The notes under the pieces: model-generated
Seen by the model: only the letters and a program-made list of their open reading frames with translations
Told to the model about the DNA's origin: nothing
The model's database searches: none
Source of the DNA: a virus
DNA length: 64,000 bases
IMG/VR virus record: IMGVR_UViG_3300032278_000003
Location: 1 to 64,000 of that record
Strand: one strand, 5' to 3'
Made by a program: the position numbers and the translations under genes
Shown here: piece after piece, positions 18,724 through 64,000 of the stretch
How the letters are laid out: each line of letters starts with the position of its first letter
Numbering within the stretch: the first letter of the stretch is position 1

Positions 18724-20676
18724 TTAACTCGAACCCTCTTCTTCATCGGGTTCATTAGAATCGCTTGACTCATTTAAAATAGACTTTTTACTATTAAGTA
18801 AACCAGACTTTTCGATATTTCTCAAAACATTTAAAATATCATTCGACATAACGGGCGCTGAGCCAACGCTATTATCGATATCTCTCTCGAAAGCTTCAAA
18901 CGATGTAAGCCTCTGGCTTCCGTACGGCTGCCGCATTGAATCTTGTTTACGTTTATTCATCGTCATGTTACCGAAATTGGGCATGTGATAAGAAGCAGCT
19001 GTTTTCTTGCTAGAGCTAGGCTTCATTTCCTGGCCCCAGACATTTTTAATTTTCGCTTGAGCCTTCAAGGGCGCATCATCGTCATCCATCGAAAGCAATA
19101 AATCGTCTTCTTCATCATCGTCATCGTCTTCATCAATTTCGTTAAAACTAGATGGGTTATCTGACGGTTCTATTGGGACTCCATCAAGCAATTTTTCATC
19201 ATTGCCCTGATCAACGGCGAAGAGGCCGCCTCCCTCTTCTTCTCCCCCAGCTTCTTCTCCGCCAGCTTCTCCGCCAGCTTCACCGCCAGATGCTTCAACC
19301 TCAGCATCATCCAGTTTATCTTGTTTCAGACCCTCCATGACTCCTTCGATTTCATCATCGGTAAGACCAAGAACATTCTTTCTAACCCACCCCTTGTCAA
19401 GCATTCCCTCTGGAACTTTACCGGCGATATCAAACCGCTGGCTAATCAACTCAAGTTTCTGTAACTGAGCTACGGAGGATGGGTTTGACAACCTCAAATC
19501 AAAATCTATGAGCTCTTCAGCGTCATACCCGTGAGAGTACAAGTGAATCATCGCAAGCTTATTCAACTCAGAGATTACTGTTTTTTGAACTCTTTGGATA
19601 GTTCTAGAAAACCTGATATCTTCTTGCGCTAGTGTTGCTTTAGAACCGATGTCTTCGTCATACCCGAGATACGCCTTTGGTATCTTTATTGCTGCAAATA
19701 ATTTCTTCTGGATATACTCTACGTCCTCTATCGCTGTGGCATTCGTACCTCCAGCTAGCGTATCAATCTTAGTACCGGTATCACCGCCTCGGACTGGAAT
19801 GTAATAATCTTCATCGACAGCCATCGGGTTATATCTCAAATCAGCTTGACCGGTTGTTGAGCTAGTGATAGTGCTCTTTTTAAGAGCTGATTTTGCTTGC
19901 TCTATGTAATTAGGGACGTCTTCCGGGGGCACATTACCAACATCGATATAAAACACTCGTCTCTCTGGGGCACGTATTATACGATAAACCAGCATCGCAT
20001 CTTCTATGAGGATCAACTGTCGCCAGATTCGACGAGCAGATTCTAAAATTGAAGTTCCGTAAGGAAGAAAAGAATCGTTTCCCAATAACCGGAAATGAGA
20101 AATTTGCCAGTTCTCTAAAATCGTGTTGCCCTGAGTCGCCCACCGGAACCTTACTGCAGCTGGGTTATCGGGATCAAACCCTTCTTCTCTCTCAATTTCG
20201 CTAATCGGAACTGGGTAAGCGTTAATCACACCGAACTCTGGGTGGACGTCGTTAAAAAGAAAGAAATCACCGTATTTACAAAGATTCCTGACCCACATAA
20301 CTAAATTAAACTCAATGTTTAACGTATCGTGAAAAAGAGTGTTCAAAAGCTCTTGTTTTTGAGCATCGTCAGAGTAAATATGCAAAACTCGGCTGTGTTC
20401 ATCGGGAGACACTGTTTCTTCAGCATATATGTCTAACGCTGATGCTAACTCTGGTGTAGCTTCCATTTCACTGAAATCACTGTACCTAGCCATCCGGTCA
20501 AAAGAGCCATAAGCGCTTAAAGTAGAGTTATAGACATCGCTATGAGCTCTTTTAAACAGTTCGACCGCAGAGGATCTTCCGGAACCCGCAGAAGATTTGA
20601 CTTTCCGCTTAACTACCGGACCTGTTCTAAATATTCTTGTCAGCCTATTAAAAAGACTTTCTGATTTTTCAGCCAT
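18724..20676 (-). CDS. Portal protein, T4 gp20-like
   Basis: Forms the dodecameric portal vertex through which DNA enters and leaves the head. Typical T4-type portal sequence: MARYSDFSEMEATPELASAL then DIYAEETV, FNLVMWVRNLCKYGDFFLFN, an acidic IEREEGFDPDNP, LLGNDSFLPYGTSILESARR, IWRQLILIEDAMLVYRIIRA with PERRVFYIDVGN, and RDP-equivalent core IQKKLFAAIKIPKAYLGYDE. Residues 470-555 are Gly/Glu/Asp-rich and unstructured (EAGGEEEGGG, EIDEDDDDDEEDDLL), an extension beyond T4 gp20 (524 residues) to 650. The last 90 residues are polar. It lies directly after the terminase gene. Confidence 0.95.
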   Translation of the reverse strand: MAEKSESLFNRLTRIFRTGPVVKRKVKSSAGSGRSSAVELFKRAHSDVYNSTLSAYGSFDRMARYSDFSEMEATPELASALDIYAEETVSPDEHSRVLHIYSDDAQKQELLNTLFHDTLNIEFNLVMWVRNLCKYGDFFLFNDVHPEFGVINAYPVPISEIEREEGFDPDNPAAVRFRWATQGNTILENWQISHFRLLGNDSFLPYGTSILESARRIWRQLILIEDAMLVYRIIRAPERRVFYIDVGNVPPEDVPNYIEQAKSALKKSTITSSTTGQADLRYNPMAVDEDYYIPVRGGDTGTKIDTLAGGTNATAIEDVEYIQKKLFAAIKIPKAYLGYDEDIGSKATLAQEDIRFSRTIQRVQKTVISELNKLAMIHLYSHGYDAEELIDFDLRLSNPSSVAQLQKLELISQRFDIAGKVPEGMLDKGWVRKNVLGLTDDEIEGVMEGLKQDKLDDAEVEASGGEAGGEAGGEEAGGEEEGGGLFAVDQGNDEKLLDGVPIEPSDNPSSFNEIDEDDDDDEEDDLLLSMDDDDAPLKAQAKIKNVWGQEMKPSSSKKTAASYHMPNFGNMTMNKRKQDSMRQPYGSQRLTSFEAFERDIDNSVGSAPVMSNDILNVLRNIEKSGLLNSKKSILNESSDSNEPDEEEGSS

Positions 20677-20726: not shown

Positions 20727-22328
20727 TTAAATTAACCACCTAAAATCCATATCTATGCTTCCCGAAAGATGCGAAGATAACACTTCATAAGGAACGCCTC
20801 TGACGCTTCTTAGTATCTTGTTTAAATATTCATTCCCGAAAGAAGAGCCAACTGACCCCTGAAACGAATTAGAATCTGATGAAAAACCAGACAACATTGC
20901 CTTATTAAGGTCCGCAGATGATTTAGAGTGAAAACTAGATGTATCATACAACCAAATACCGATCGCTAAAGACATAACTAGATCGTCATGCTTCCCGCGC
21001 ATCGCCTGTGGCCTCGAACCCTTCCATATAAAGGTTTTCATCTCTTCATAAAACCTAGAAGAGTATATCTTTATTTGGTTATTCCTAATTACTTCTTCTA
21101 GTTTAGTTAAAATCTTGTTTCTAGAAGGACCTTGCGTTGAAAAGCCAGCTTTGCCAATGGGGCCATCATTATAAAGGGCAGAGATGCGATCTTTCTCCTT
21201 CTCGAAGTAAATATTTTGGCATTTTAACTCTTTTAGCTTCATCAAAACAGCATATCCGTATGTATTGCTCTCCGGGCAGATGACTGCGTTGTTATACCTC
21301 TTACTAGCCTCTATTAGGACCAAAGCAAATTGATCTGGTGGTGATTTTCCCTTAAATTCGCAAACAACTTCCGACTCGTTGGTATCAATTACATGAAAAG
21401 TTGAAAAATCAGCGCTATCGCCGCGGGATATATCGGCACTGATGACGTATTTGTTTTCTGGTTGGGCATATTTCCAAACCCAAATGTTATTGCTTGGTCC
21501 CCAGCGCTCTAATGGGTTCTTGATTGACATCATTAGCTTCTCAATGTCCCTTTGTGTCAAAAATGTCTCACCAGAAGCTTGGAAATCACACAGTAGCTCT
21601 TGCGCTATCTGCCTTTTTGTCATATTCTTGGTTTCTTTTTCAAACCAAGCATCATCTCTTTCTGGGTGAACATCCCACTGAAGTTTTATTGGGTTAAAAT
21701 CATTATCGCCAGTTTCGGCTTGCATATAAATGTCATAGTACTGACCACCGACACCATTTGGCGTTGATAGAACTATTGCGCGGCCACCAGTGGACAACGT
21801 TGGGTATAAACCCATCCACAGTTCATCAAAATTCCTCACGAAAGCAGCTTCGTCAACTATTAGCAAAGAAAGCGCCTCAGAACGTCCAGCATCTTCTGAT
21901 GTCGGTACTGCTTTTACGATTGAACCGTTCGAAAACTCAAGAGATTGCTTATTATTAGAAATTATCTCTGGCATTAGCAACCACTTCGGTAAATGGCGGA
22001 TGATAAACTTAACTTTTCTAATGAAATTTTGCGCGACGGCCAATTTTGTGGCAATAATTAAAACATTCTTATCTTTATAGAAAATGGTTAACCAAACAGC
22101 GTACGCAGCAACTAAAGTAGATAACCCTAACTGACGGCTTTTGACAATTACGTTAAACCGGTGAGCATTGAACTCTTTTACGCACTCATCTTGAAACTCG
22201 TAAGTATCGAAATCTAACGTTCCTCGAGTAGCGTGCTGTATTTTGCAGTATTTGTTAAAGAAATAAGAAGGATTTTTCCCGCATTTGATGATCTCTTTTA
22301 CTTGTCGCTGCTTCGTCGATGGGGGCAT
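20727..22328 (-). CDS. Terminase large subunit, T4 gp17-like
   Basis: ATP-driven packaging motor with nuclease. ATPase: classical Walker A SRQLGLST (residues 64-71), Walker B LSLLIVDEAA (153-162, D159/E160) and coupling motif VLSTPNG (186-192). RNase H-fold nuclease: SADISRGDSADFST with D299, CPESNTYG with E353, and GKHDDLVMSLA with D448/D449, so all acidic centres are present. At 533 residues it is shorter than T4 gp17 (610), with a short N-terminal region. Its start overlaps the stop of the 122-residue gene by one base (TAATG). The portal gene follows. Confidence 0.97.
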   Translation of the reverse strand: MPPSTKQRQVKEIIKCGKNPSYFFNKYCKIQHATRGTLDFDTYEFQDECVKEFNAHRFNVIVKSRQLGLSTLVAAYAVWLTIFYKDKNVLIIATKLAVAQNFIRKVKFIIRHLPKWLLMPEIISNNKQSLEFSNGSIVKAVPTSEDAGRSEALSLLIVDEAAFVRNFDELWMGLYPTLSTGGRAIVLSTPNGVGGQYYDIYMQAETGDNDFNPIKLQWDVHPERDDAWFEKETKNMTKRQIAQELLCDFQASGETFLTQRDIEKLMMSIKNPLERWGPSNNIWVWKYAQPENKYVISADISRGDSADFSTFHVIDTNESEVVCEFKGKSPPDQFALVLIEASKRYNNAVICPESNTYGYAVLMKLKELKCQNIYFEKEKDRISALYNDGPIGKAGFSTQGPSRNKILTKLEEVIRNNQIKIYSSRFYEEMKTFIWKGSRPQAMRGKHDDLVMSLAIGIWLYDTSSFHSKSSADLNKAMLSGFSSDSNSFQGSVGSSFGNEYLNKILRSVRGVPYEVLSSHLSGSIDMDFRWLI

Positions 22329-22696
22329 TATGAAACCTTGAGGTGAACATTCATCCTATAGTATGCATGCTTACGCGGTGAGTATGGAGATACGCTTACT
22401 AACTCTACGTCATCATCCCTGTCTTCCTCTGTGACCTTAATAGAACGACCGACCCGGTCCTTAAACTGAGTTTTCATGTTCTTTAACGCATCCGCGATGG
22501 CATCATTAGCCTCTTTTTCGTATTTAGTCTTCTGCTGCTGCATTGATTCTTCACTAGCAAAAGATATAACCGCAATGTACTTAAGAACTAAGCTATCCCC
22601 GTGTATATGAGAGGTTACTTTCATAGTATCACTAGAATAACCAAAAGTGTGATTAAATATCTGTCCTAATGCGCTGACTTCTTCTGAATTTAACAT
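22328..22696 (-). CDS. Conserved small protein preceding the terminase, 122 aa
   Basis: Function unknown. The sequence begins MLNSEEVSALGQIFNHTFGY, then two strands (MKVTSHIHGDSLVLKYIAVI), a helix (ATDAIADALKNMKTQFKDRV-like, residues 65-85) and ends in SVSPYSPRKHAYYRMNVHLK. The FNHTFGYSS start and SPRK-x-AYYR end are features I associate with a family in T4-like marine phages. Being coupled to the large terminase by a TAATG overlap, it could be a packaging accessory or small-terminase substitute, but it lacks an evident DNA-binding helix-turn-helix, so that is speculation. Confidence 0.72.
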   Translation of the reverse strand: MLNSEEVSALGQIFNHTFGYSSDTMKVTSHIHGDSLVLKYIAVISFASEESMQQQKTKYEKEANDAIADALKNMKTQFKDRVGRSIKVTEEDRDDDVELVSVSPYSPRKHAYYRMNVHLKVS

Positions 22697-22704
22697 TCTT
22701 TCTC

Positions 22705-22965
22705 CTAAAAAAACCTATACCTCGGTTTAAATCCTGATTTCTTTCTCAATAGCCACTCGTCAACTTCTTTCTGACCCGGCTTCCAATCTTGACCCAAAAA
22801 ATTCTTATTGGGTTCTATAAAACATATAAAGCACTCTGAGCAAGAATCGTGGTTGTAGACGCTGATAGTATCTTCTAAAGTTTGAAGTATACCAGAGCAC
22901 ACCGGACAATTGACAGCAAAGCTTTTTTCTCTTTCGTCTATATAAATATCAACAAAATTACTCAT
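22705..22965 (-). CDS. Small zinc-site protein, 86 aa
   Basis: A short protein with two cysteine pairs, CPVCSG and CSECFIC, spaced like a zinc ribbon (CPVC-x18-CSEC). It opens with a strand (VDIYIDEREKSFAV) and ends DEWLLRKKSGFKPRYRFF. The gene overlaps the 3' end of the Mre11-Rad50 fusion gene by 8 bases, so they are translated together. It may bind nucleic acid or act as an adaptor in the recombination or packaging cluster; nothing more specific can be read. Confidence 0.7.
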   Translation of the reverse strand: MSNFVDIYIDEREKSFAVNCPVCSGILQTLEDTISVYNHDSCSECFICFIEPNKNFLGQDWKPGQKEVDEWLLRKKSGFKPRYRFF

Positions 22966-25900
22966 GAACTACCAAAGAATTCTTTCCCTTATTTCTAATG
23001 TCTAAAACGTTATCAACAACATCTTTAATTGCATCTATGTGCGAGATCACCAATATACACTTAAACCATTTTTTAAGAGACAGCAACAAACGGCTGCAAG
23101 CTTCTATGTTCCCATCATCGAGAGCACCGAAACCCTCATCAATTATAAGCAAATCTGACTTTGGTAAATTAGATACATTAATTAAAGCCACCCTGATGGC
23201 CAAAGATGATAACATTTTCTCCATACCAGACGCACACTCTATTACGCGCTTTGAGTCACCGTAATTAATAAATACGTCAAGAGCATTCGTGTTTTCTTCA
23301 GCCTCGATGTCGACAGTGAATTCTACAACTCCATGAAGTATCTTTTCGATTTCAGCGTTTATGATGGGAAGCTGCACACTCATTATTTTTAGCGGTATGC
23401 CTTTTTTATCAACTGCTTGAAGAAAAGCAGTATAAACATTCCACTTCTTTTTTAGCTCAGCAAATTTTTCTCTTTCTTCCTCTAGATCAGAAAGCACCTG
23501 CTGGTTTAAACCTATTTTCTCGCTGAGGCTTAGCCTTTCGGAGTCAAGAAAATTAGCGCGAGTAGATAGCATTTTTAGCTTGCTCTTTAGACGATTAATC
23601 TCTTTTGCCTCTGAACTTTCTGTCGCATTTAACTTCATTTTTGATAACTGGTTCTTAGAATCTTGAAGCTCTTGGTTAATGTTAGTATCTTCAACTTCAA
23701 GCTCCCTCAAAGACACGACCATGCCGCTTTTTTCAAGCTTTGAATCTGATTCTGACTTTAATATATCTTCGTATTTACTGACTTTATCCTCTAGCGACTC
23801 ACCCAGCATTTTTTTCAAGCTTCTCTTTATTGCGGAACAGTTAGACGAAATCTCTGTGACTTTTTCTTGCTGCAGCGGAATGTTTTCTTTTGCAATGTGG
23901 GAATCTTTGATGAATTTGCACTTTGGGAACTGAGTTCCGCAGGGAACAACTTCCAGAGTGCTAGCACATTTTTTCTGGTTCTTTAAAAGAGTCTTTTCTC
24001 TCTCGAGCATGTGCTGTATCGATTGTAAATTAACCTCGATCTCTTTTTGTTGCTGCAGGTTTTCTTTTAACTCTTCAATCGGAAACTGTTCTTTTATCAA
24101 GGATATTTTTTCAAGCTTATTATCGATCTCGTTGATACTGTCAGAGATGGATAATATCCTTCTTTGCATAGACATGCTTCTTTTTAGCAAGTCATCGATA
24201 TGCTTAACTTGATCTCTTATCTCATCTTCAGTAAAATCTTCAGAATTTTCGTGAGTTGCTAACAAAAGCTTTAAGCTATCAACTTCTTCTCGTATAATCT
24301 TTGACTGTTCTTCAACCTCTATTCTTTCTTGCACAAATGATTCTAACTCGAACCTTTTATTCCTGATAATAGAAGACCAGTCTCTATCTGGAGCGCTTTT
24401 CATTGAACCCTTAAGTTCTGAAAACTCTGCTTTAGCGATATTCAGCATGCTGTCAAATATGCCCAAATCCAAAAACTTAGTAAGTATAGATTTCCTGACT
24501 GTTGCGCCGTTACAGATGAAGTTATTCATCCCTCCCTGGCTGGCTAAAGATGTCAGAAGAAAATCTTCCGCAGACCCGACTAAAAGCTTAAGATCTTTCT
24601 CTGTTTCCCTTCTTTGTTCGCCGCTAAGATCTTCTACTTTTTCACCGTTCGATAATACCTTCCAAAGGTTTAAGCTCGTTGAGGCATTGGTCTTTCCAGA
24701 CCTCATTGTATGCTTAACAGACTGCCTCTCTGTCCTGTATAATATTCCGTTAACGTTAAAATCTATATTAACTTGACAAAAACCTTTTCTTGAATTGATG
24801 ATATGCAAATTTTTGATAGCGCCACGATCGGTTGTATTAAAAAGCCCGTACATCATAGCACCAGGAATCGATGATTTTCCAGACCTGTTTTTACCAAAAA
24901 TGCCAGTTATGCCTGGAAGCTTATCAAAATCAATTGCGTTTCCAGTTCCGTAACCAAAAGTATTATCAAACCTCATCTTTTTTAAAGACCACTTTAAGTT
25001 TTTCTTGCTTTCGTTACGAGCGGCTTCCGAAGCAATTCTTTTCGTCATGTCTTCAAGGATACTGCGCTCATCGTTGCTTAAAACATAAGTCTTAGTATAC
25101 TCGTTCATGAGTTTAACGTGAGTCGATGGGTTAGATAAATCAGACTTATTCAGTGTCGTATCACCGATGGTGATCGTCTCATCGTGCGTATCATCTACAT
25201 CCCACTTAAAAACGACTTCAGTCGATAAGTAATTCTCTTTTAACTCATTCGCTAGCTGTTTTATCTCACTTTGTGGTATTGTCGTTGAAGACCTGATCCT
25301 AAATCTTCCCTGCTTCATCGATTCATCCACCACCACTAAAGTTTTTTCAATACTTCCCTCCCAGGGGATTGTATAAAACGAACGTGGGTTAGAAACAGCG
25401 ACAAACTTAACGTCAAAATCATCACGATCTCTAATGTCCCATATGAGGTATCCTTTGTCCGGATCTTCTCCATAATTCTGTTGTATTGTGCTACCTGGAT
25501 AAGCTATGCGCTGATCTTCAACAAGGAATTGTGATTTATGAATATCACCCAAAAAAGCAAAATCAAAATCTTTAAAAAACTCTGCATTTATCTGGTCGTT
25601 TTCGCTAATTTCGAAATCACTATCGACTTTGCATCCCCAAACCGGTCCGTGAAACAAGGCTATACTTAAGCCCTGTGGGCTTGGGTTTACTTCCTCCCAG
25701 GATTCTTCATCAAAACACGAAAAGACACACCAGCTAACACCGTGACCCTCTATCGGATATGTTCCGGACTGTTTGTACAGTTTAATGTTATCATCGCCTA
25801 TAGCTTCAACAATCGGGGTGATAGCATCTTGCCTGTCTTTGTTCAAGATGAGACCGTCGTGATTGCCCAGGATCGCGTGAACGGGGGCGATTGATGCTAA

Positions 25901-26107
25901 TCCCTTAAACCACCAGACTAAAACTTGAATTAATTCTGGAGAAATGCCTTGAGTCTTCGAGTGTACTATATCGCCACCGATGAATATAGCGTCTAAATCT
26001 TCGTCTCTTAAATCGGAAAATATTCTTTCGAAAACTTCGATATACTCATCGTGACGTGATAGCCCTCGAAAGTGAATGTCAGCAAAATGTGCGCATCGAA
26101 AACTCAT
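22958..26107 (-). CDS. Single-chain Mre11-Rad50 (SbcD-SbcC) recombination nuclease
   Basis: A 1049-residue fusion of what are two proteins in T4 (gp47, gp46). Residues 1-330 are an Mre11/SbcD metallophosphoesterase: FADIH (D10, H12), GGDIVH (D46, H49), LGNHD (N82, H83), LFHG (H153) and LGDIH (D188, H190). From residue 370 comes a Rad50/SbcC ATPase: Walker A GKNRSGKSS (405-413), a long coiled coil with central VPCGTQFPKCKF at the hook position, a second coil, signature CASGMEKMLSSLA, Walker B DLLIIDEGFGALDD (D990, E991) and switch VISH (H1023). All catalytic residues are intact. The hook is C-x6-C, not the usual C-x-x-C. The enzyme should resect double-strand ends for recombination-dependent replication. 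Primase and resolvase genes lie just upstream. Confidence 0.95.
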   Translation of the reverse strand: MSFRCAHFADIHFRGLSRHDEYIEVFERIFSDLRDEDLDAIFIGGDIVHSKTQGISPELIQVLVWWFKGLASIAPVHAILGNHDGLILNKDRQDAITPIVEAIGDDNIKLYKQSGTYPIEGHGVSWCVFSCFDEESWEEVNPSPQGLSIALFHGPVWGCKVDSDFEISENDQINAEFFKDFDFAFLGDIHKSQFLVEDQRIAYPGSTIQQNYGEDPDKGYLIWDIRDRDDFDVKFVAVSNPRSFYTIPWEGSIEKTLVVVDESMKQGRFRIRSSTTIPQSEIKQLANELKENYLSTEVVFKWDVDDTHDETITIGDTTLNKSDLSNPSTHVKLMNEYTKTYVLSNDERSILEDMTKRIASEAARNESKKNLKWSLKKMRFDNTFGYGTGNAIDFDKLPGITGIFGKNRSGKSSIPGAMMYGLFNTTDRGAIKNLHIINSRKGFCQVNIDFNVNGILYRTERQSVKHTMRSGKTNASTSLNLWKVLSNGEKVEDLSGEQRRETEKDLKLLVGSAEDFLLTSLASQGGMNNFICNGATVRKSILTKFLDLGIFDSMLNIAKAEFSELKGSMKSAPDRDWSSIIRNKRFELESFVQERIEVEEQSKIIREEVDSLKLLLATHENSEDFTEDEIRDQVKHIDDLLKRSMSMQRRILSISDSINEIDNKLEKISLIKEQFPIEELKENLQQQKEIEVNLQSIQHMLEREKTLLKNQKKCASTLEVVPCGTQFPKCKFIKDSHIAKENIPLQQEKVTEISSNCSAIKRSLKKMLGESLEDKVSKYEDILKSESDSKLEKSGMVVSLRELEVEDTNINQELQDSKNQLSKMKLNATESSEAKEINRLKSKLKMLSTRANFLDSERLSLSEKIGLNQQVLSDLEEEREKFAELKKKWNVYTAFLQAVDKKGIPLKIMSVQLPIINAEIEKILHGVVEFTVDIEAEENTNALDVFINYGDSKRVIECASGMEKMLSSLAIRVALINVSNLPKSDLLIIDEGFGALDDGNIEACSRLLLSLKKWFKCILVISHIDAIKDVVDNVLDIRNKGKNSLVVHE

Positions 26108-26114
26108 GAATACC

Positions 26115-27089
26115 TTAAATTAAAGATCCGGATTTTATCGAAGAGATCAGGTTCAAAAGCCGGTCATCATTACCGAACTTTTTAGCTGAATTTAATCTTT
26201 CGAAAAAAACTTTTTTGGTCATCTCTCCAACGTCATCATACCCGTTACAATCTAAAATCCTAACAGCAATTCCGTAAGAATTCAGAAGCGATGCGATCTT
26301 ATACATTTTCGTCCTCATGTCTGGATCAAGCGCCAAACAGACAGGAGTATCATTTTTTACTATCATTCTAAATAGGTTCTGATCTTCTTTTAAAGAACAA
26401 CCCAACAAGCATGTAGCGTTGTTATTAGCTTTCACTAAATCAAAAGGGCCCTCTACGAGTGTTAATTCTTTGCTCCAATCAATGTTTATTTCATTGAAAA
26501 TAATATCTCTTCTTGGGACTCTCGAGTTAATGTACTTCATTCTAGAATCTTTAAAAACAGAACGAGCTACATAGTAATTCAGGCATCCATCGCTATCAAA
26601 CGACGGCATGATTACTCGATGTCTCAGCCTTCCAAATGGTGTCGCGCACAGTTTAAAATACCAGAGATCATCATCCGACATGCCTCTTGACTGAGAGTAT
26701 TTTATGCTTGCTTTGATGTCCGGATCGATGGACTCTTTGGATTCAACTAATAAGACAAATCCTTTCGGAAGCTCAACTTCTGGCACCTCGTCCAAATTAA
26801 CAGAAACTTGGTTATCAGAATTATTCATTCTCTTAAAAACGCGAGAAGATTCATCAGCTAAAGATGGGAAATATCTAAAAGCTAGCTTGCGTACGCCCAA
26901 ACCGGAAATACCACACACCCAGCAGTTGTACTGTTGCGTCTCTAGCTGGATCACTAGTTTTAGCTTTGAAGAATTGTGTGATTTACACTTTTTGTTCGGG
27001 CACGAAACTTCAACGTTAACGTTATCTGGTGTCGGTCTAATTTTTTTAAAAGCTCGACGTAAGAATTTTATTTTTTCATTTCGCGACAA
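26115..27089 (-). CDS. DNA primase, DnaG-type
   Basis: Makes RNA primers for lagging-strand synthesis. An N-terminal zinc site is formed by SCPNKKC (C30, C35) and NCWVCG (C56, C59). The catalytic TOPRIM region has LVEGPFDLVKA (E213, D217) and LALDPDMRTK (D255, D257). A central GRLRHRVIMPSFDSDGCLNY is the RNA polymerase-domain segment typical of DnaG. There is no helicase domain, so a separate helicase is expected elsewhere. At 324 residues it is close to T4 gp61 (342). The gene starts 1 base after the resolvase stop and lies 7 bases before the Mre11-Rad50 fusion start, forming a tight three-gene unit. Confidence 0.9.
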   Translation of the reverse strand: MSRNEKIKFLRRAFKKIRPTPDNVNVEVSCPNKKCKSHNSSKLKLVIQLETQQYNCWVCGISGLGVRKLAFRYFPSLADESSRVFKRMNNSDNQVSVNLDEVPEVELPKGFVLLVESKESIDPDIKASIKYSQSRGMSDDDLWYFKLCATPFGRLRHRVIMPSFDSDGCLNYYVARSVFKDSRMKYINSRVPRRDIIFNEINIDWSKELTLVEGPFDLVKANNNATCLLGCSLKEDQNLFRMIVKNDTPVCLALDPDMRTKMYKIASLLNSYGIAVRILDCNGYDDVGEMTKKVFFERLNSAKKFGNDDRLLNLISSIKSGSLI

Positions 27090-27090
27090 T

Positions 27091-27630
27091 CTAATCTCTT
27101 GTAGCTAGATCTCTAGCTATAACATAAGCATCTGCCATATCATAACATTCTTTGATCAAGACTACAAAGCCTTTTCTCGGACCCTGTCTCATGACCTTGG
27201 TTGGCCAATCAAAACTTGGTTCGAGAGACGATACGTGTTCTTGAACTTGTTCTTTTGTGTTTTTGTCACTTTTTCGATTGATCTTTATGCCCAGGTTCTT
27301 TCTAGCCGAATTTACGTTAATAAACTCTGGCGTTAATTCAAAAATTTCCTGTGATATGTAAGAACAAATTCCGTTAAACCTTGCTAACGTCACGATCGTT
27401 TTAGCGCTAGATAAGCCGGGTCTAAATGCTTGCAAATTTTCCTCTATCCCGACCCTAGTTACGTTTAATTTGTTAGTTAATAGGGATAATTCTTCTTTAA
27501 ATTTTTTCCCCTTGTCGAAGACTGACTTTTCTTTTTCTAAGTTTATGTATTCTAAAAGCTTAAGTTGGTTTTTTTCATTTAAAACGCAAACACCAACAAC
27601 GGATGTGGATATATCTAGACCTAATATCAT
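27091..27630 (-). CDS. RuvC-like Holliday junction resolvase
   Basis: A 179-residue RNase H-fold nuclease expected to cut four-way junctions in replicated or recombining phage DNA before packaging. It opens ILGLDISTSVVGVCVLNEK (D6), has VGIEENLQAF (E63/E64) after the second strand, and closes with CYDMADAYVIARDLA (D164, D167), giving the four-acid RuvC active site. NSARKNLGIKINR is the substrate-helix region. T4 uses an unrelated resolvase (gp49), so this is a different solution. It is the first gene of the island with primase and Mre11-Rad50. A regulatory role as a nuclease of another type cannot be excluded. Confidence 0.85.
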   Translation of the reverse strand: MILGLDISTSVVGVCVLNEKNQLKLLEYINLEKEKSVFDKGKKFKEELSLLTNKLNVTRVGIEENLQAFRPGLSSAKTIVTLARFNGICSYISQEIFELTPEFINVNSARKNLGIKINRKSDKNTKEQVQEHVSSLEPSFDWPTKVMRQGPRKGFVVLIKECYDMADAYVIARDLATRD

Positions 27631-34944: not shown

Positions 34945-37900
34945 TTAGTTACTCGACCCAGCCTTTTTAATTTTTGCGCGTAAAGTTAACGGATACATAG
35001 AGTTTCTCTTAACTCTTCCATCAGTGCTGTTTAAGTAAGGCAAGCCCTCTCTTATTAAAGAAAAATCTTTTATCTCTTGACCATCTATTAACTCAATCTC
35101 TCCTGGTGTATCAATCAAACTACCGTCCAATTCTTTTCGGATATTTTTTTGCAAGACAAAATCATCTAGCTTGTATGTTAGACCGACAATATGATCAAAA
35201 ACAAAACCGTGCTCAAACTGTTCTAACACCTCTTCCACATTGGAAAAAACTTCGTTTACTGACGTAAGTATTTCCGCAGCTGCTAAACTCCTCTTCGTAA
35301 TCGGTTGTTCAAATTTGAACGGATAAAATATTTTGCTCTCTAAATCAACAGCATCTTTCGCGAATAACGCGTTACTAAGATCGTCAAACTTAAATAGATC
35401 TTGCCGACCGATCTCGTCAAAGTGAGAGTAAAAAGGCGTTGAAGCTTCGTCTATCCTAGTCCTGTCATAGAAATACTTAAGCAGATGCTGCGGACCTGTT
35501 TGAGCATTTTCAGCAACATTGCTAGCTCCTTTAAAAGTAGCAACTATTTTCGCCAAACTTTCCCGCATGGGTTCTTGGTAATTCCTCTCTTCAGGCAACT
35601 CTCCCCTTCTATCTGGAAAATAATCTCCGACCGGAGCGTGACTGTTAAGATAGGGTATCGTGTATTCAAAAAAGTTCAAACCCAAAACGTGATTAGCATA
35701 AATCTTTAAAAATACGCTTAGTATTTCAACTTCATCGCTATACCCCTTTTTGACTTTAGAAACACCGCCCCTTAAATACCCAAGCGAATCAGCGAGTCCA
35801 CGCCTGTTGTTTGATACTTCACTTCCCAGTGAAGAGACAGATATTCCTTCGTTAAATCGTGCTAGTATATCTTCAACTCTAGAATGCTGGTTTTCTTGAG
35901 AATCCCAGTTAGTTGCAATTTTGATAATTTTACCACGAGAAAAATTTAAAACTTTTGTCTCAGGAGATCGTTCTTTCGGATCAAACTTAAGAACTATCCA
36001 TGGACGAAAATAATCAAACAACTCAAGCTGAATCTCAAAATCACCATCGCCAAAGAGGGAAAAATGACCCTGGGTACTTTCGTCTTCATTGTCCAGATCA
36101 TCCGGTGCTGACAGTATTCTTGTTAGCTCGCCAGTTTCTATACCGACAAAACAAACTCTAGTGTTTTGAGAATCGATCAAACCCAATTCATGAAACCACC
36201 TTTCTGCTTTTTTGTAAGAGTTAAGCTGGTTATGCTTGCTACCGAAATGGGGAGACTTAACCTCATTAGCAGCGGCACCGTGATTGTTTGGTGGAGCGAA
36301 TGGGGTAAGTTTAAAACCGGGAACTATGCTAAGCTTTTTCCTGCCACCAGGACCGTATGGCAAATACCACGATTCTTGAGAGCCGTCATTTCCATCGTGT
36401 CCGTGAGTCATCGCCCTGACCCTTAACGCGTTATAATTGTCTAACACTTCTGGCGTAACGTTGACAAACCCAATCTTAGATATCTGCTCAACCGCTAACT
36501 GATTTGTCTTTCCTTGCTGCGCATTTTTTAAATCCTTAGCGATTTTTTCGTAGGTTGACATTGACAAATCAAAAACTTCTCTATAGAGTTCAGCATACTG
36601 CTTCTGAGCATACAAGTACTGGTAATACTGCCTCTCTAAGCTATCAACGTTATTCACACTATTCTGGTGGGTATAATTTGACCAAGTTCCAGAACTTTGA
36701 GCATCAACATTTCTTGAAATATTACCCCATTTTGGCACAACAGCAATTTCCGGCGGGGTGTAATCTTCAACCCACTCCCTCTTAGCAGTTATTTCAAAAT
36801 ACGGATGATCTTCTTGCCAGAAAAAGCAGTAAGGTAACTGGGCCACGGTGGCTCTTGCTTTTCGTTGATTAAAGCGAGAAGTACCGGTAGCTATCTCACA
36901 AATTTTGGCATGCATGTTTGTAAAAAACGTTTTAGCTTTAACTTTTTCAGCCTCAATTTTTCGCTCAACCCGGGTATACATCGCACGGCTCCATGGAGCT
37001 TCCATCCACTCTTGGTAAGCATCTTCACCGTATGAATTGTAATACTGCGTTGCTGAACCCTCTCCTGTGACAAACTCGTTAATAGTGTATTCTTTATTTT
37101 GACCGTCGCCGGAATAATTACCGTGCTCATCAAACTCTAGACCTTCGTTGATTTCACTGACCATGTAATCAAGCGCCATAGTACCCAAAGGGAGGGCTAC
37201 ATGCAAGTTATTCTTGTACCAATCTAAGCTTCTATCATAAAACGGTTGAGTACCAGAAATATTGAATCCCTTAACGTAATCTGGCAAATACGTTGCTTCA
37301 GCGTCAGCCTCGGCTGTCCCGAAACCCATCGAAGGATTCAGCGTGCCCATCTGACCGGTACCGTCTTTATATACTGGGTCTGGGCTATAATGCGTCCAGT
37401 TTGAACCACCCTCTCCTGTAAAATATAGATAAGTAGTTACGGTATTTGCATCACCCTCAGAACCGATATACTCAGTCGGTATGCCACTATTGAGGTATTT
37501 AAACTCTGGATAAAATCTACCCGCGCGGACGTCATCTAGATCATCTGGATACGGATAATACTCAGACGCGATATCTTTTCTATAGTATACATCTGCAGCG
37601 GTTATCTTGTTGTGCTCTATATCTTCGTCATGAAAACCCTCAGCTTTCCCAAGAAAAACTTGCCGGGCGACGGTTGAGATAGCTTTAAGACCGTCGTCTA
37701 TCCGAACTAGCCCGTTATCCGGACCTCTATCTTCGTATGCCCACATCCAATCAACTGGGACTGCAGATATTGTCGGTGCGTGACCCGTGTACTCTAAGAT
37801 CCAGTCAGGTATCAACCCGATGCCCGATTCAGCACCCTCGGCAGGTTCTCTGGGGTTCGGTGGATTATAACCGTCTCGAGAGTAGTAAAAATAATTATCT

Positions 37901-40900
37901 GGTCGCGGGGGTGGGGTGCCGTCCTGGTTATTATTTCCATCTACCCATCGACTCCACCAGGCATCCTGGCGGCCGCCCTTCTCTGGGTTTTTGGAAAAGC
38001 CGTAGGTCGGGTGGTTGTGAGCGTGACGGACCCAATCCCAAGTTTGATGCCCCCAACCGATGACAGCTGGGTCATCTTTCAGGTCATTGTAAAACAACCT
38101 TGCGTACTCGTACTGCTGTCGAAAACCCTCCACATTGTTGGACATCGTTATCCCAGTATCAGTTAAACCGCCGTTTAAATCATCATAGTAAGCAAGAGCT
38201 AAAAACAAATTTGCCATCACCCATCTTGCGTTCTGGTTACCTCTTCGGTAATCCTCGACAGCTTCAACATCTGAGACAGTGACTGGGCCACCGAATGAGT
38301 TATAGTGAGCTGCGTTGCCGCCGGAGGGGTGGTGATCGCCCAAGCGCCAGTCAGCGTACATATAATTGTCGCGGAACCCGCGGTTGTACGTCCGGCCATT
38401 GCCATAGAACTGTGCGTGATGAAAGCGAGGGCCAACGCGGACCGACTCTGGTAACTCTTTAGCAATACCGTCTACAAGCATGTTACGATCGTTAGTGGGC
38501 CGACACCTGAGAGCGTGGGCGAACGAGTAAGTCCTTTTCTTCAGTTTAATATCAAATTTAATTCTAGTTATGATCTTGACTATCGGCTCTGACAATGGAT
38601 AAATTTGGACCCAGTCACTTGAGTTATCTTCAGTGAAGTTATCCATTCTTCCCCTGAACACTTGCGAACTTCCTACAAGATCATTAATGATCGGCATCTT
38701 TTCTAGTAGCTCGTTATACCATTTCGTTGGTAACAAACCTACCCTTGAGGAAAAGAAAGCATGAACTCGAGTAAAAGTACCCTCTCCAAGGGCAGCAAAA
38801 TCACTTTGATTTTGCTCAAAATTTCGCCACCCGCCCTGCTCTAAGAAAATAGGTTTGGAAGAATAACCAAAAAATGTATCTGCATCGCTTACGTCAAAAT
38901 TAAAAGTCGTTTTTTCTCCATGGGTGTAGCTTATTAAAGCGCGGTCTGAAACAGAGAGTTGAGTTTTCAGTTTATCTCTAAATTTAATATTTTTCGGAAC
39001 ACAAGAAAACAAAAAATCACGATAATCTCTTCTGTTTACTAGCGCTGTTGTCTTATAAAGAAAATCGGTTTTTTCAAGCGTAGTTCCGCCTCGATTTATA
39101 CCATGCGGAGCATCATCTTCTGATGCGAGCTGGATTTTCTGCCTTTGAAACGGGCTATTGAGCGAAACGTGCGGTAAGAATCCAGAACGAGTGTGAATTG
39201 CGAAAGCAGTCCACTCATCTATAGAGTTATTGATAGGTTCAACAGCTAATCTGAAAACTGGCTCTTTTGACAACTGATCCTCAGCAATCTTGAAGTAATC
39301 GTTCGCCCGGGCGACATACTCATTTAGCTGGTAAGCTAACTGAGCCTGGCTTCCTCCCTCCGTTGTAAAAGTTCTTAACGTTCTTCGTATATTATCAGAG
39401 TAAGTACTTGTTCTATCATAAGATGATTGAGCATCTCTCACGTCATAATACCCGCTAGACACCACTTCTTGACGGTTTGAATTTTGAACTTGCTTAAACT
39501 TAAGCTTAACTTTGGGTAACTCTTTCGTGAATATCTCAGCTATCTTAACGTATTCCCAAACTACATCAAAAAGATCCTCGTCAGACATATTAACGATTTT
39601 TTCATCTTGACGGTTTTCAGCATTAGTCACTAATCCCAATCCACGGAAGATACCAAGCGGGTTATCGTTAAAGCTTGATTTACCCTCTATTTTTTCGAAA
39701 ATATCTGCTAAATTTTGACCGTCTTCGATGGTTTCCTGGGTTGGATAGCCGTAAAAAAGCTGCGCGCATATAGCTTCTGCAAGCATTATTAGAAAATTAT
39801 CATCCCTATCCAAGTTTAGTACTTGGCTTCTCAACTTATTTATCGCAGACTGCTTAACGCCGTCATTCAGGTTTAACGAAGCAAAACCAGCTGTTTCTTT
39901 AGGACCGCCGGCTCCGATACCACGAACGCCCATAACCATATTATCTATTGTTCTAACATTAGTCTCTGCAGCAGTAGCATCTGTTCTTTGCGGTCTTCCT
40001 TCAGCAGGTTGTCCCTCAGAATTGCGTCTTGCTCGTCCCTGGTATTCATACTCTTGTTCTGTCGCTCCCGGACTGTATCCACCCTCGGAAGTAAATAAAA
40101 AATCTTGAACAACACCGGCATAATTTTCTTGCGCATCAGCTCGTCCAAAGAATCTGCTAACGGCATTAACAAATCCTTCTGAGTTTGGTGACATGCCAGT
40201 TCCAGCTTCAACTGTTCGAACGATGTTTCTTCGATACTGTGCTAAAGCCCTATCCCTGTTTCTTGGTAATTCGTCTACACGATCAGCTAAATTTGAAACA
40301 TTGCTAAACAAACCAGAAACTAAGCTTGAGTTATCAAACCCCTCCCTAACTACATCTTCGTTCATCTGGTTCATCAAACCGATTTTTTGATTCAAAGTGA
40401 ACCTAGTGAATGCTTTATTTTCTTCAAAAAAAACAGATTTTGGGTTGTTAAAATCCCTAATCCAGTTATTGTCTTCAATTTTTTCGTGATACTGTGAGTA
40501 CAAAGCGTTTGCAGCTTGAGAGTAAGCTATATCGCTGTAATAATGTGAAAAGAACGGTGAACCGACGTCGTTATACCTTTCAGATAGCTGAATCAGCACA
40601 GCGAAAAAGATATATTTCCTCTTTGAATCTATTGACATAGATCCAATAACCGTCCCGTTGATCAGCGAATTTATATCATCTCCCAGCTGACCGCCAGCAG
40701 CAACAGTGGCACCTACAGTGCCGCCCTCAGCAGTAGTACCGGCAGGGATATCTTGACCGGTGGATAAATTTTGAGTAAAAACAGAAACACTGTTACTGTT
40801 TGCAGAATTTCCCAATAGTATCCTAGACGCTCTATTAAACGCGTTGCTCTTAAAAACTCCCAGCGAATAATTTGATAACTTAGTACCGCGACTGCTCGAT

Positions 40901-42723
40901 CCCTGATGCGCATAGTGCGAAGCTAGTAACGCGCTGTTATAGATATACCGACCGACTCGTCGCTTCGTTATGTGGGAAACTATATTCCTGGGATCTAGCA
41001 AAACTAAAACTTCTTTTTCTCTAACTTCAGCATCAACTGAGTATTCTATTCCGGCCATTACGTTGCCGCCGATCACTGTTTCCCTGATCGGACACATTTT
41101 ATCGATAAGCTTCTCGGAAAGGTTTACCAAACTTTCTGGCCCGTTCTCGAACGGAAAAGCTTTTAGTATCTCGACTTTTTTGTTAAAATCTGAGTCACCA
41201 AGATTATTTTTGATGTTATCAATAAGCGCCAACAGCTGACTTTTCTTTAAAATCAAAACATCTCTTATCGTCATAAAATGCATTATCAACGAACCAGATT
41301 TTTCTAAAGCATCATTAATCAAAAACGGAGCAAAAGTAACAGCTTGATTATTCCTTTTTATTGATTTAGTTCTAGCAAAAATTTTCTGGACATCATCTTC
41401 TATTACATCATCAACTTTACCGTTGGGTAAGATCCTGCCCTGCGATATAACGAATGTACCAGCTGTATCTCGTGGTGATTTTATATCTAAGTTTGGGTTT
41501 TCATCCGCGGATGCGTACTTAAAATCTGATTTAGCTCTTAGTATTTTTCTTCTAATCTTTAAAGCTGAGCTATAGATATCATACTCGATAAAATCACTCA
41601 CTACCGGCATTGTCGACGCACCGGAATAAACATTTTTTCCCGACCTAAACCTTGCTCCCGAAACATCATTGTGGACAAATTTCATTTCTTCTATGTAGTG
41701 ATTTATATTCCTGATAGATTCTGAAGCTGATTTAATGAAAAATTGCCAGTGATCCGATTTGTCAAACTTAAAACTTAACTCTTGATCGTCAAACGTATTA
41801 AACCGAAAATTATGCTTCAAACTTTCGTAATTTGTTGGGGCGTGCGGGCCGAGGTCGTTGTAATTAGAACCCCAAACTATTCGATTAATAAAATCTATGT
41901 ATTTATTAGCTTTTAAATTATCTTTCCAAGCTGTCCGGGCCATGAATCGAACTTTGCCGATATCGATAGCCATTTCTTTGTTGAACTTCATTTGCCTGGG
42001 TTGCGCATTAACAGCTTGAATTACGTATTCGTCTATCTGATATAGCATTGCATAGACTTCTAAGATCTTTTGAAAACAAGCCGACATGCCCGTTCTTGAT
42101 TCGGTCTGTTCTTCGTTGTAAGACCTGATTACGGGATGGCGTGCGTACAGCCCTATATTCATTCTATCTAAATTTCCGGTAGAGTCAACCCTGTACGTCC
42201 GCGGATCTTTTGCGTTCTTAGGATTTTCCTCACCAACATAATTCTCGAACATGATACAGTTAGCAACCCAGTCTCTCCAGACTCTAGCATCTGAATTCCT
42301 TCGCCACATCTTAGCAGAACCAGAGTCTTTTTGTGCCGCTAACCCAGCAGGTTCGTCAGCGCCGGTTTCTTCTAAGTCAAAATTTAACGGTACATAATTG
42401 AAGTCGGCCAGAATGTGAACCGGTTTGCGCTTTATCTCTCTCTGCAGAAAACGGTCGCCGTCGGGTTGCTTAAAAAAATCAACAAGCTGTTGATCAGTAT
42501 AATTGATTTTTGTTGTAGTCTCTGCAACACCGGTATTATGAACAATGGCTGCCGGCGTGGGAAGCAAACCCTGATTGCTTGTAGATACAACGATTGATTC
42601 TCTTATATTTTCATGTCGTTCTTCATTAGAAACAGCGATATTGTTGTTACTACTTTTGGGAGAAGTGTTGGATATCGTCGGATTGATTCCTTGAGCAGAA
42701 TTTTTTCCGCTGTTATTTCCCAT
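34945..42723 (-). CDS. Giant virion protein of unknown function, 2592 aa
   Basis: The largest gene in the window (7.8 kb). I do not recognise a family. The first 75 residues are polar Asn/Ser-rich; a helical region follows (DNLKANKYIDFINRIVWGSN, ILEVYAMLYQIDEYVIQAVN). Other notable parts are a loop with repeated Gly/Ala (residues 650-690), a Trp/Tyr-rich stretch near residues 1480-1650 (WDWVRHAHNHPTYGFSKNPE, DAWWSRWVDGNNN), and a late helical part (YYQYLYAQKQYAELYREVFD). No membrane segment, signal peptide or typical enzyme motif is visible, and it does not look like a tape measure. The stop-start junction with the previous gene (TAA-ATG) indicates coupled translation. A baseplate or tail-tip structural role is likely by context. 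Confidence 0.7.
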   Translation of the reverse strand: MGNNSGKNSAQGINPTISNTSPKSSNNNIAVSNEERHENIRESIVVSTSNQGLLPTPAAIVHNTGVAETTTKINYTDQQLVDFFKQPDGDRFLQREIKRKPVHILADFNYVPLNFDLEETGADEPAGLAAQKDSGSAKMWRRNSDARVWRDWVANCIMFENYVGEENPKNAKDPRTYRVDSTGNLDRMNIGLYARHPVIRSYNEEQTESRTGMSACFQKILEVYAMLYQIDEYVIQAVNAQPRQMKFNKEMAIDIGKVRFMARTAWKDNLKANKYIDFINRIVWGSNYNDLGPHAPTNYESLKHNFRFNTFDDQELSFKFDKSDHWQFFIKSASESIRNINHYIEEMKFVHNDVSGARFRSGKNVYSGASTMPVVSDFIEYDIYSSALKIRRKILRAKSDFKYASADENPNLDIKSPRDTAGTFVISQGRILPNGKVDDVIEDDVQKIFARTKSIKRNNQAVTFAPFLINDALEKSGSLIMHFMTIRDVLILKKSQLLALIDNIKNNLGDSDFNKKVEILKAFPFENGPESLVNLSEKLIDKMCPIRETVIGGNVMAGIEYSVDAEVREKEVLVLLDPRNIVSHITKRRVGRYIYNSALLASHYAHQGSSSRGTKLSNYSLGVFKSNAFNRASRILLGNSANSNSVSVFTQNLSTGQDIPAGTTAEGGTVGATVAAGGQLGDDINSLINGTVIGSMSIDSKRKYIFFAVLIQLSERYNDVGSPFFSHYYSDIAYSQAANALYSQYHEKIEDNNWIRDFNNPKSVFFEENKAFTRFTLNQKIGLMNQMNEDVVREGFDNSSLVSGLFSNVSNLADRVDELPRNRDRALAQYRRNIVRTVEAGTGMSPNSEGFVNAVSRFFGRADAQENYAGVVQDFLFTSEGGYSPGATEQEYEYQGRARRNSEGQPAEGRPQRTDATAAETNVRTIDNMVMGVRGIGAGGPKETAGFASLNLNDGVKQSAINKLRSQVLNLDRDDNFLIMLAEAICAQLFYGYPTQETIEDGQNLADIFEKIEGKSSFNDNPLGIFRGLGLVTNAENRQDEKIVNMSDEDLFDVVWEYVKIAEIFTKELPKVKLKFKQVQNSNRQEVVSSGYYDVRDAQSSYDRTSTYSDNIRRTLRTFTTEGGSQAQLAYQLNEYVARANDYFKIAEDQLSKEPVFRLAVEPINNSIDEWTAFAIHTRSGFLPHVSLNSPFQRQKIQLASEDDAPHGINRGGTTLEKTDFLYKTTALVNRRDYRDFLFSCVPKNIKFRDKLKTQLSVSDRALISYTHGEKTTFNFDVSDADTFFGYSSKPIFLEQGGWRNFEQNQSDFAALGEGTFTRVHAFFSSRVGLLPTKWYNELLEKMPIINDLVGSSQVFRGRMDNFTEDNSSDWVQIYPLSEPIVKIITRIKFDIKLKKRTYSFAHALRCRPTNDRNMLVDGIAKELPESVRVGPRFHHAQFYGNGRTYNRGFRDNYMYADWRLGDHHPSGGNAAHYNSFGGPVTVSDVEAVEDYRRGNQNARWVMANLFLALAYYDDLNGGLTDTGITMSNNVEGFRQQYEYARLFYNDLKDDPAVIGWGHQTWDWVRHAHNHPTYGFSKNPEKGGRQDAWWSRWVDGNNNQDGTPPPRPDNYFYYSRDGYNPPNPREPAEGAESGIGLIPDWILEYTGHAPTISAVPVDWMWAYEDRGPDNGLVRIDDGLKAISTVARQVFLGKAEGFHDEDIEHNKITAADVYYRKDIASEYYPYPDDLDDVRAGRFYPEFKYLNSGIPTEYIGSEGDANTVTTYLYFTGEGGSNWTHYSPDPVYKDGTGQMGTLNPSMGFGTAEADAEATYLPDYVKGFNISGTQPFYDRSLDWYKNNLHVALPLGTMALDYMVSEINEGLEFDEHGNYSGDGQNKEYTINEFVTGEGSATQYYNSYGEDAYQEWMEAPWSRAMYTRVERKIEAEKVKAKTFFTNMHAKICEIATGTSRFNQRKARATVAQLPYCFFWQEDHPYFEITAKREWVEDYTPPEIAVVPKWGNISRNVDAQSSGTWSNYTHQNSVNNVDSLERQYYQYLYAQKQYAELYREVFDLSMSTYEKIAKDLKNAQQGKTNQLAVEQISKIGFVNVTPEVLDNYNALRVRAMTHGHDGNDGSQESWYLPYGPGGRKKLSIVPGFKLTPFAPPNNHGAAANEVKSPHFGSKHNQLNSYKKAERWFHELGLIDSQNTRVCFVGIETGELTRILSAPDDLDNEDESTQGHFSLFGDGDFEIQLELFDYFRPWIVLKFDPKERSPETKVLNFSRGKIIKIATNWDSQENQHSRVEDILARFNEGISVSSLGSEVSNNRRGLADSLGYLRGGVSKVKKGYSDEVEILSVFLKIYANHVLGLNFFEYTIPYLNSHAPVGDYFPDRRGELPEERNYQEPMRESLAKIVATFKGASNVAENAQTGPQHLLKYFYDRTRIDEASTPFYSHFDEIGRQDLFKFDDLSNALFAKDAVDLESKIFYPFKFEQPITKRSLAAAEILTSVNEVFSNVEEVLEQFEHGFVFDHIVGLTYKLDDFVLQKNIRKELDGSLIDTPGEIELIDGQEIKDFSLIREGLPYLNSTDGRVKRNSMYPLTLRAKIKKAGSSN

Positions 42724-63400: not shown

Positions 63401-64000
63401 TAAAATTATCAAACGATGTTCCGTTATCGAAGGTACCCGATTTTACAGCTGACACGTTTATAAAACCCGAACCCTCATAATCGCCCGCAGCATTTACGTG
63501 GGTACCTGATCCGGATCCCGGGACGCCGCCACCAGTAGAACCTGAAGTTAAGTCAAGCGTGTATATGTCTACTCCGTTTAATTCTAAGACTAACGAACCG
63601 ACATTGGCATCACCGAAAGAATTAGCGACGTAATTAGTCTCGTTACTTGGGGTAGTTACGTCGGCGGGAATGTCTTCGTTCAAATCACCAATTAAATCGC
63701 TAGCGCCATTATAAACTGCAGCTCGTAAATTATTTGAACTAGTCGCAGTCGCATAATCCCCGTTCACGTCAACAGCTGCTCCAATTCCGGCGGAAGCTGC
63801 TACATTGACATACGCCGGGGAAGCTGCAGACTGGTCGTTGCTTGTACCAAACGAAAGTTTGACATCCGTACCATCTGAGTTGACATCAACATCATCTAAA
63901 TCTGGAGCTGGCGCTGGAACCAAAAGCTTAAGGATCTCGTTAAACCTATCAACAGGAGTACCAACGGGAGTTGATGTCGTAAAATCGGTAAAAAGACCAT
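60477..64000 (-). CDS. Large virion protein with duplicated 560-residue unit (5' end outside window)
   Basis: The frame is open to base 64000, so the start lies outside; about 1173 residues are visible. An apparent start at 63923 is a TTG inside the frame, and the preceding codons read TPVGTPVDRFNEILKLLVPA then PAPDLDDVDVNSDG, a sequence that continues naturally. The protein consists of two similar units of about 560 residues. Each has KLSFG, a Gly/Ala-rich part, (G)SLxLE-(V/L)NG-(V/S)-I, SGFINxSA, a (K/Q)xxVA strand, NGWNYxRVxH...YxEWVND, and later PNxNPxY, RxxxRxFKN and TGxxDxxxAF. It ends ITQMSVSWS. Thr/Ser/Asn richness and repeats suggest a fibre or surface protein. It starts the fibre block. 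Confidence 0.8.
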   Translation of the reverse strand, partial: GLFTDFTTSTPVGTPVDRFNEILKLLVPAPAPDLDDVDVNSDGTDVKLSFGTSNDQSAASPAYVNVAASAGIGAAVDVNGDYATATSSNNLRAAVYNGASDLIGDLNEDIPADVTTPSNETNYVANSFGDANVGSLVLELNGVDIYTLDLTSGSTGGGVPGSGSGTHVNAAGDYEGSGFINVSAVKSGTFDNGTSFDNFKHRTGKWKVATTGAVGQKNGWNYARVKHVKGVTVVTNYVEWVNDPDANALAAASNSLAFTGTGSLQISGVTYFTGGNAQYQVTVSNAYRYVYDTTATSFTTSNAGTRSGVTYNISNVAKAAIGGGENHLKQIVINETDSVAANYILGGSITAGVTVSHPIKNNLNNSGQSSASGILLYNVSDTATVTSETFQREAYRLQLDAYANQSDVTGGSLNWNPATSLVGGGTHGDGLQVYRERLYAPKNTLNSGDFRNTSDGGSLANGPDSNPNYSAATGLRTYYRKFKNAGAAKRDLSYTIAGSVTLVANGDAVGANNKFRLYFKMPSDGAGNTTDWLDAKTAFSYNTVTENAGCAIGAVDTSNAMTNNITFGTVEVGTDEWVVAKIVTDDDWSGYLDSFAVTFGAVNAVNASPNVNDIDCNQSGVNGKLSFGATLTKGGYTAVSTAAGFSAVNANGAYNLSSDRRAIFNKGQVISGDINESTSASGNNYPANAFGSGKAHQGSLKLEVNGSVIHTADLTSFGSGSSLTSGSGFINLSAATVGEDNNNLPDYTRFYRTGQFQVAIAAQRNGWNYVRVIHSVDGSDHASDYAEWVNDDSNPTISFSGVAVGNFTSGSTYQCSGVTYFISPTGRFDFTVANLYKYVYSSSASAISFPTTTNSTVTSIAATGDGVTNSTVNAASRTLPALDTGVSDAYDDDLVVQATFSFDQGTSIPGETAYSVTLTGRVHHPLEGNTTTSSTSSAELLVANFTDNSTNTTEYFNGEAKRLKAGTTSYTTQAHVSGGSNDWNSATSMDGADAAHNTGLIVYDGKLRSPQKVGPSGNLGDFRDSGQSGTIIAPNGNPDYGSLTNATREYIRWFKNTSGASKTNFDLTINGTGTIVQNTEALGSSNKIQVFAKISHSSADQTTGWMDTAKAFASGQNGDNAGALVGSLDSSLNATNEVTFGTKFVDNNEYILIKIVADKTWTGNITQMSVSWS

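Follow-up and report, generated by a model that had tools for sequence, protein, structure and literature searches.

Genomic context of the fusion gene

The window, meaning the whole 64,000-nucleotide stretch analyzed here (positions 1 to 64,000 of the IMG/VR virus record IMGVR_UViG_3300032278_000003), encodes a Mre11-Rad50 fusion of the SbcD-SbcC type (22958..26107; 1049 aa, ATG start). This gene and all features described below lie on the minus strand. Upstream of the fusion, across a 7-bp gap, is a DNA primase-like gene (26115..27089; PHROG_47, E = 4e-28), followed by a gene for a RuvC-like Holliday junction resolvase (27091..27630; PHROG_827/159). On the other side, a conserved small ORF of 86 aa (22705..22965) overlaps the fusion stop, and a conserved ORF of 122 aa (22328..22696) occupies the interval between the fusion and the terminase. 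Relatives of these two ORFs were found in 56 and 69 of 220 loci, respectively, and neither matched a Pfam or PHROG family above cut-off. The terminase large subunit (20727..22328; Pfam Terminase_6N, E = 1e-15) and a T4-type portal protein, gp20 (18724..20676; Pfam Portal_T4, E = 7e-74), complete the cluster.

The phage is T4-like, with matches to portal gp20, the major head protein and the tail sheath. Four very large ORFs at 34945-42723 (2592 aa), 48980-54985 (2001 aa), 55482-60473 (1663 aa) and 60477-63923 (1148 aa) probably encode tail or fiber proteins. The neighborhood recurs among relatives: counterparts of the primase, RuvC or terminase genes accompany the fusion at 180 loci. Of these, 45 were inspected singly, and in them the genes run co-directionally as (tail genes)-RuvC-primase-fusion-TerL-portal, within the limits of each contig.

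Domain architecture of the fusion protein

The fusion ORF (window 22958-26107) contains 1049 codons without an internal stop, and the same frame was found again in the parent virus record of 66,967 bases. Its N-terminus matched Pfam Metallophos (residues 4-191, E = 1.3e-12) and the SbcD-like profile PHROG_100, and its C-terminus matched the SbcC-like profile PHROG_77 (E = 7e-46), with SMC_N and SbcC_Walker_B scoring there under the curated Pfam cut-offs. A profile search of the PDB with the fusion family recovered SbcC, Rad50, SbcD and Mre11 chains. AlphaFold2 modeling of a single chain (mean pLDDT 86.7, pTM 0.56) gave the order Mre11 core, cap, helix-loop-helix, Rad50 N-lobe, outgoing coil, loop, returning coil and C-lobe. 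The top PDB folds for this model were Mre11-Rad50/SbcCD, and a fold search of viral predictions returned full-length top matches in Tupanvirus, Harvfovirus and Yasminevirus (E down to 3e-62), in addition to full-length matches to the Tenacibaculum phage fusion proteins. One continuous frame with the nuclease first and the ATPase second, as proposed in the first-pass annotation, is therefore upheld by the ORF, Pfam, PHROG and AlphaFold2. The single fused frame is shared by at least 100 different full-length homologs with identities of 27-75%, so the fusion in the window is not a sequencing error. Production of a separate Rad50 from an internal start was also considered and rejected, as the three ATG codons around the domain junction (334, 354 and 378) all lack a Shine-Dalgarno-like sequence.

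The Mre11 phosphoesterase core, which includes the Metallophos match, spans residues 1-250 (25358..26107) and carries the motifs D10-x-H12, G45-D46-xx-H49, G81-N82-H83-D84, H153 and G187-D188-I-H190. Using the Mre11 ligands of P. furiosus as reference (D8, H10, D49, N84, H173, H206 and H208), every ligand was present by motif position except His206, the third active-site His, which is replaced by Asp188. In addition, the canonical GDxxD reads GDxxH (H49). The earlier proposal that all metal-site and ATPase residues are intact thus needs qualification; the other Mre11 ligands are present, whereas the metal site itself departs from the canonical form at these two positions. Conservation is nonetheless near-complete: D10, D46, H83, H153, D188 and H190 were identical in 175 of 175 aligned relatives, H12 and N82 in 174 of 175, and H49 in all 78 relatives of a pattern-selected set. 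Mimivirus R555 has the same two departures, GDxxH and Asp for His206 (PMC3175470). Because the ligand motifs are nearly invariant and both departures are fixed and shared with R555, the active site looks, from sequence, to be maintained in the R555 version.

A Mre11 capping domain (approximately residues 251-320; 25148..25357) was assigned by its position and by AlphaFold2 secondary structure, and a low-confidence loop (306-314) falls inside it. It is followed by a helix-loop-helix (residues 327-364; 25016..25129), modeled as helices 327-340 and 345-364, an element that docks Mre11 on the root of the Rad50 coil (PMC3175470). In the model, this element runs straight into Rad50 with the next strand at residue 372, leaving a short linker.

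The Rad50 half starts with the N-terminal ATPase lobe (residues 372-545; 24473..24994), delimited by the family profile and AlphaFold2. Its Walker A motif, GKNRSGKS (residues 405-412; 24872-24895), keeps G410 and K411 in 175 of 175 aligned relatives. AlphaFold2 places the outgoing coiled coil at residues 549-720 (23948..24463) and the returning one at residues 734-899 (23411..23908). The C-terminal ATPase lobe (22958..23410), supported by Pfam and profile matches and by alignment, contains the signature SGMEK (960-964), Walker B LLIIDE (986-991), a D-loop and H1023.

Distribution of the fusion among viruses

Fusions of Mre11 and Rad50 were described in 2011 by Yoshida, Claverie and Ogata in Mimivirus R555, a Bacillus phage, bacterial plasmids and eukaryotes, in tree positions outside the canonical bacterial, archaeal and eukaryotic clades (PMC3175470). 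R555-like genes were reported as abundant in aquatic viral metagenomes, mostly on phage-like contigs with adjoining phage primases (PMC3175470). The first-pass annotation had implied that the fusion was novel; that suggestion does not hold given the 2011 report (PMC3175470), several isolated phages and more than 200 IMG/VR contigs. A search of phage databases for the domain order recovered the same order in isolated phages and in hundreds of viral contigs. Microcystis phage Mel-JY01 (PP395634) encodes a fusion of 1066 aa annotated as 'AAA domain containing protein', and Xanthomonas phage phiXF1 (951 aa) and Thermus phage phiLo (866 aa) likewise have a single frame with both PHROG domain matches. 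The proteins of Tenacibaculum phages pT24 (1310 aa) and PTm1 (1318 aa) match the window model over nearly their full length, and that of PTm1 matches the SbcC PHROG. Listeria phage LMTA-57 (KJ591605 / NC_047871; L004:2917-5946) was rejected as a cultured example. Compared with the two separate genes of about 50 near-identical Listeria phages, its fused gene lacks one nucleotide, and its apparent fusion is probably a one-nucleotide deletion.

Fusion was also the rule in DNA scans. In a scan for the hook motif (at least 120 contigs), all hook-bearing frames but two matched the window protein, and a nuclease, whole or partial, was present in every listed frame whose upstream end was available, the partial ones being split genes and fragments. 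A scan using the Mre11 motif alone, blind to the hook, found every evaluable relative fused among the matches listed, and a scan with the other hook type found 85 of 87 evaluable frames fused, with one split and one truncated gene in addition.

The Mre11 domain is unsplit in the window protein. At ten loci (L015, L045, L068, L075, L113, L143, L304, L002, L017 and L234), it is divided into two ORFs at a single position, with GDIHK before and YPGSxxQQN after the break, and the C-terminal part remains fused to Rad50. In L045, L068, L075, L113 and L143 these frames share a few bases (ATGA, GTGA, TTGA and similar); they lie a few bases apart in L015 and are separated by a gap of 702 bases in L304. 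An endonuclease-like ORF of approximately 300 aa sits at the junction in L017 and in L002, an uncultured 484-kb phage, where it matches a TnsA-like endonuclease. The loop at this position is longer in some unsplit relatives, for example L054, L083 and L183. No Rfam match to a group I or group II intron was found at the split in ten sources. The Mre11 split resembles the genes-in-pieces that homing endonucleases produce, in which a split enzyme can stay functional, as Aeh1 NrdA does (PMC2988022).

Hook spacing and conservation

The hook loop comprises residues 721-733 (23909..23947), where AlphaFold2 breaks the helix, and contains C723-x6-C730 (23918-23941) in the sequence PCGTQFPKC. The C-x6-C reading of the first-pass annotation was confirmed at C723 and C730, as was its statement that this differs from the usual C-x-x-C. 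Both cysteines were present in 78 of 78 pattern-selected relatives. For a hook-blind count, spacing was read in 74 evaluable homologs that the Mre11 motif alone had picked out among the matches listed. C-x6-C (type A, mostly PCGxx[FY]PxC) occurred in 54 of the 74 and C-x2-C in 16, comprising 12 with DPxCxxC (type B) and four with other C-x2-C hooks; four homologs had a hook of some other form. A search of prokaryote genomes totaling 257 billion bases found the type-A pattern on four contigs, three of them with the same phage cassette. The prevalence of C-x6-C in relatives, together with the mostly phage-borne prokaryote examples, identifies a conserved feature of this group of phages rather than a misreading.

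The Rad50 CXXC zinc hook has been described as conserved from archaea to humans and viruses (PMC5093744), and no description of a C-x6-C Rad50 hook was found in the open-access literature. The Pfam profile Rad50_zn_hook (PF04423) did not match the window hook even at E <= 10, nor the hook regions of three relatives (L061, L181 and L193), whereas T4 gp46 matched it weakly (E = 0.006). The hook peptide by itself gave no tblastn match in phages. We infer that the type-A tip still joins the two arms through a cysteine-metal or other cysteine-dependent contact with a different geometry; it might instead form a disulfide, or hold no metal site. Dimerization at the hook may differ from that in C-x2-C systems, as the earlier reading had suggested.

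The Walker A motif was also compared between hook types. It starts with Ala rather than Gly (AxxxxGKS) in 47 of 66 type-B proteins, as in Mel-JY01, and keeps Gly in 101 of 101 type-A proteins.

Exchange of hooks between close relatives

A tree of 175 rows was built from the nuclease and ATPase heads, leaving out the hook, the coil and one Mre11 loop. It implied at least six switches between hook types A and B, a number to be taken as an estimate since the tree came from a quick search without bootstrap. A first heads tree of 122 rows gave 10 changes when all hook types were counted. Switching was clearest in near-identical pairs. Between L061 (type A) and L181 (type B), identity is 98% in the heads but 41% in the hook. 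At the codon level it amounts to 94% as far as residue 690, drops abruptly there to 48-52% over residues 691-750 and rises again afterwards, and their flanking DNA is collinear at 84-91%. A second pair, L130 (type A) and L193 (C-x2-C), is 97% identical in the heads and 38% in the hook, with a broader edge than in L061/L181. L130 and L158 are also near-identical fusions with different hook cassettes (C-x6-C against C-x2-C), in which identity drops sharply at the hook.

Local recombination of the hook cassette is the straightforward reading of these pairs at the sequence level. The members of the swap pairs stem from different metagenomes, and any single contig may be an assembly chimera. The coil as a whole is the fastest-evolving part of the fusion proteins. 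Modularity of the hook is plausible because the Rad50 hook has been replaced experimentally by the MukB hinge (PMC6969161), and the exchanges suggest, in line with that experiment, that the tip tolerates replacement. In close relatives that differ by a clean hook swap, nature has in effect repeated the published hook/hinge replacement (PMC6969161), and with pairs as similar as L061/L181 it becomes testable what a Rad50 tip must do.

Proposed role and alternative explanations

Taken together, these results make it probable that the fusion is a functional Mre11-Rad50 machine in a single chain, made by an aquatic T4-like myophage, that processes DNA ends for recombination-replication and carries its dimerization tip as an exchangeable cassette. 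The fusion, its conserved catalytic motifs, the hook spacing and its conservation, the cassette exchange and the gene order are seen in the sequences; nuclease activity, metal binding, dimerization and a role in replication are predictions. By homology, two chains would pair both through their ATPase heads and nuclease cores and at the tip of the coil. ATP binding would clamp DNA ends, and their trimming at the ATP-gated Mre11 site would yield 3' ends for use in recombination-dependent replication, like those made by the T4 gp46/47 homologs (PMC3175470). The primase and the RuvC-like resolvase would act alongside, and the terminase would then package the concatemer; such constant neighbors would suit a module for the priming, recombination, resolution and packaging of concatemers. 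The position beside packaging genes also leaves room for a role linked to packaging. The hook types would be cassettes moved by recombination among related phages. A fixed 1:1 stoichiometry and tethering of the nuclease by the fusion, as put forward in the first-pass annotation, is a reasonable inference, and equal amounts and local assembly had already been proposed in 2011 (PMC3175470).

Several other explanations were weighed against this one. That the single frame is an artefact of assembly or sequencing joining two genes has a precedent in LMTA-57, one nucleotide short of its two-gene relatives, but it is refuted by the independent full-length homologs noted above (at least 100, with the same single frame) and is hardly credible here. 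Alternatively, the fusion could be mainly a structural clamp or tether of DNA ends for packaging or repair, with a weak or altered nuclease. The Asp188 in place of the canonical Mre11 His, the GDxxH motif and the constant adjacency of TerL and portal would fit such a function. Asp is, however, a normal metal ligand, and the invariance of Asp188 and the remaining ligands in 175 proteins and of H49 in 78 is that of a maintained site; the primase and RuvC-like resolvase are equally constant neighbors, and we regard a mainly structural role as rather improbable. The hook loop could also be a degenerate, non-functional tip whose cysteine spacing has drifted, the arms joining by coiled coil alone. 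The coil evolves fastest, and C-x5-C, C-x7-C or the lack of a clear pair occurs in a few members, yet in the hook-blind sample both cysteines and the PCG..[FY]P.C frame are mostly kept amid diverging coil, and the hook types form a few discrete classes rather than a continuum, so that degeneration appears unlikely.

A more specific version of the exchangeable tip is that C-x6-C is a true alternative metal hook, of a geometry incompatible with C-x2-C, and that repeated swaps in this clade lead to own-kind pairing or to escape from hook-targeting factors. We hold this to be possible and somewhat doubtful. If true, own-kind pairing would mean that the arms do not pair with the Mre11-Rad50 of the host or of co-infecting phages.

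Comparison with known systems

The fusion is an ordinary member of the known viral Mre11/Rad50 fusion family. It shares with R555-type fusions the order of Mre11 first and Rad50 second in one chain, a viral and aquatic origin, and adjoining phage primase genes. R555 is longer, at 1351 aa compared with about 1050 aa for the window protein. It was argued from structures of the T. maritima proteins that a nuclease-first fusion fits the complex, as the C-terminus of Mre11 lies near the N-terminus of Rad50 (PMC3175470). The same report makes no mention of the hook, and the C-x6-C tip is thus undescribed there. The Mel-JY01 fusion is 29.6% identical to the window protein across 99% of the query and also has a primase-like gene directly upstream, whereas its hook is C-x2-C (DPKCKHCCNNIFV) and that of the window is C-x6-C.

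In T4, which has homologous domains in its phage recombination nuclease, gp47 and gp46 are two genes, whereas the window has one; the T4 gp46 hook is CPTC. The two phages are alike in that the window phage has a T4-like portal, capsid and tail sheath. E. coli SbcCD and archaeal and eukaryotic Mre11-Rad50 have the fold and catalytic motifs in common with the window protein, and differ from it in being encoded by two genes and in having the canonical GHxH and a C-x2-C zinc hook. The fusion itself adds one example to a family published in 2011, and the hook matters more. A large natural family in T4-like phage contigs, mostly with non-CXXC spacing, stands against the statement that CXXC is conserved in all life, viruses included (PMC5093744), and it is the hook that makes the window fusion a variant worth following.
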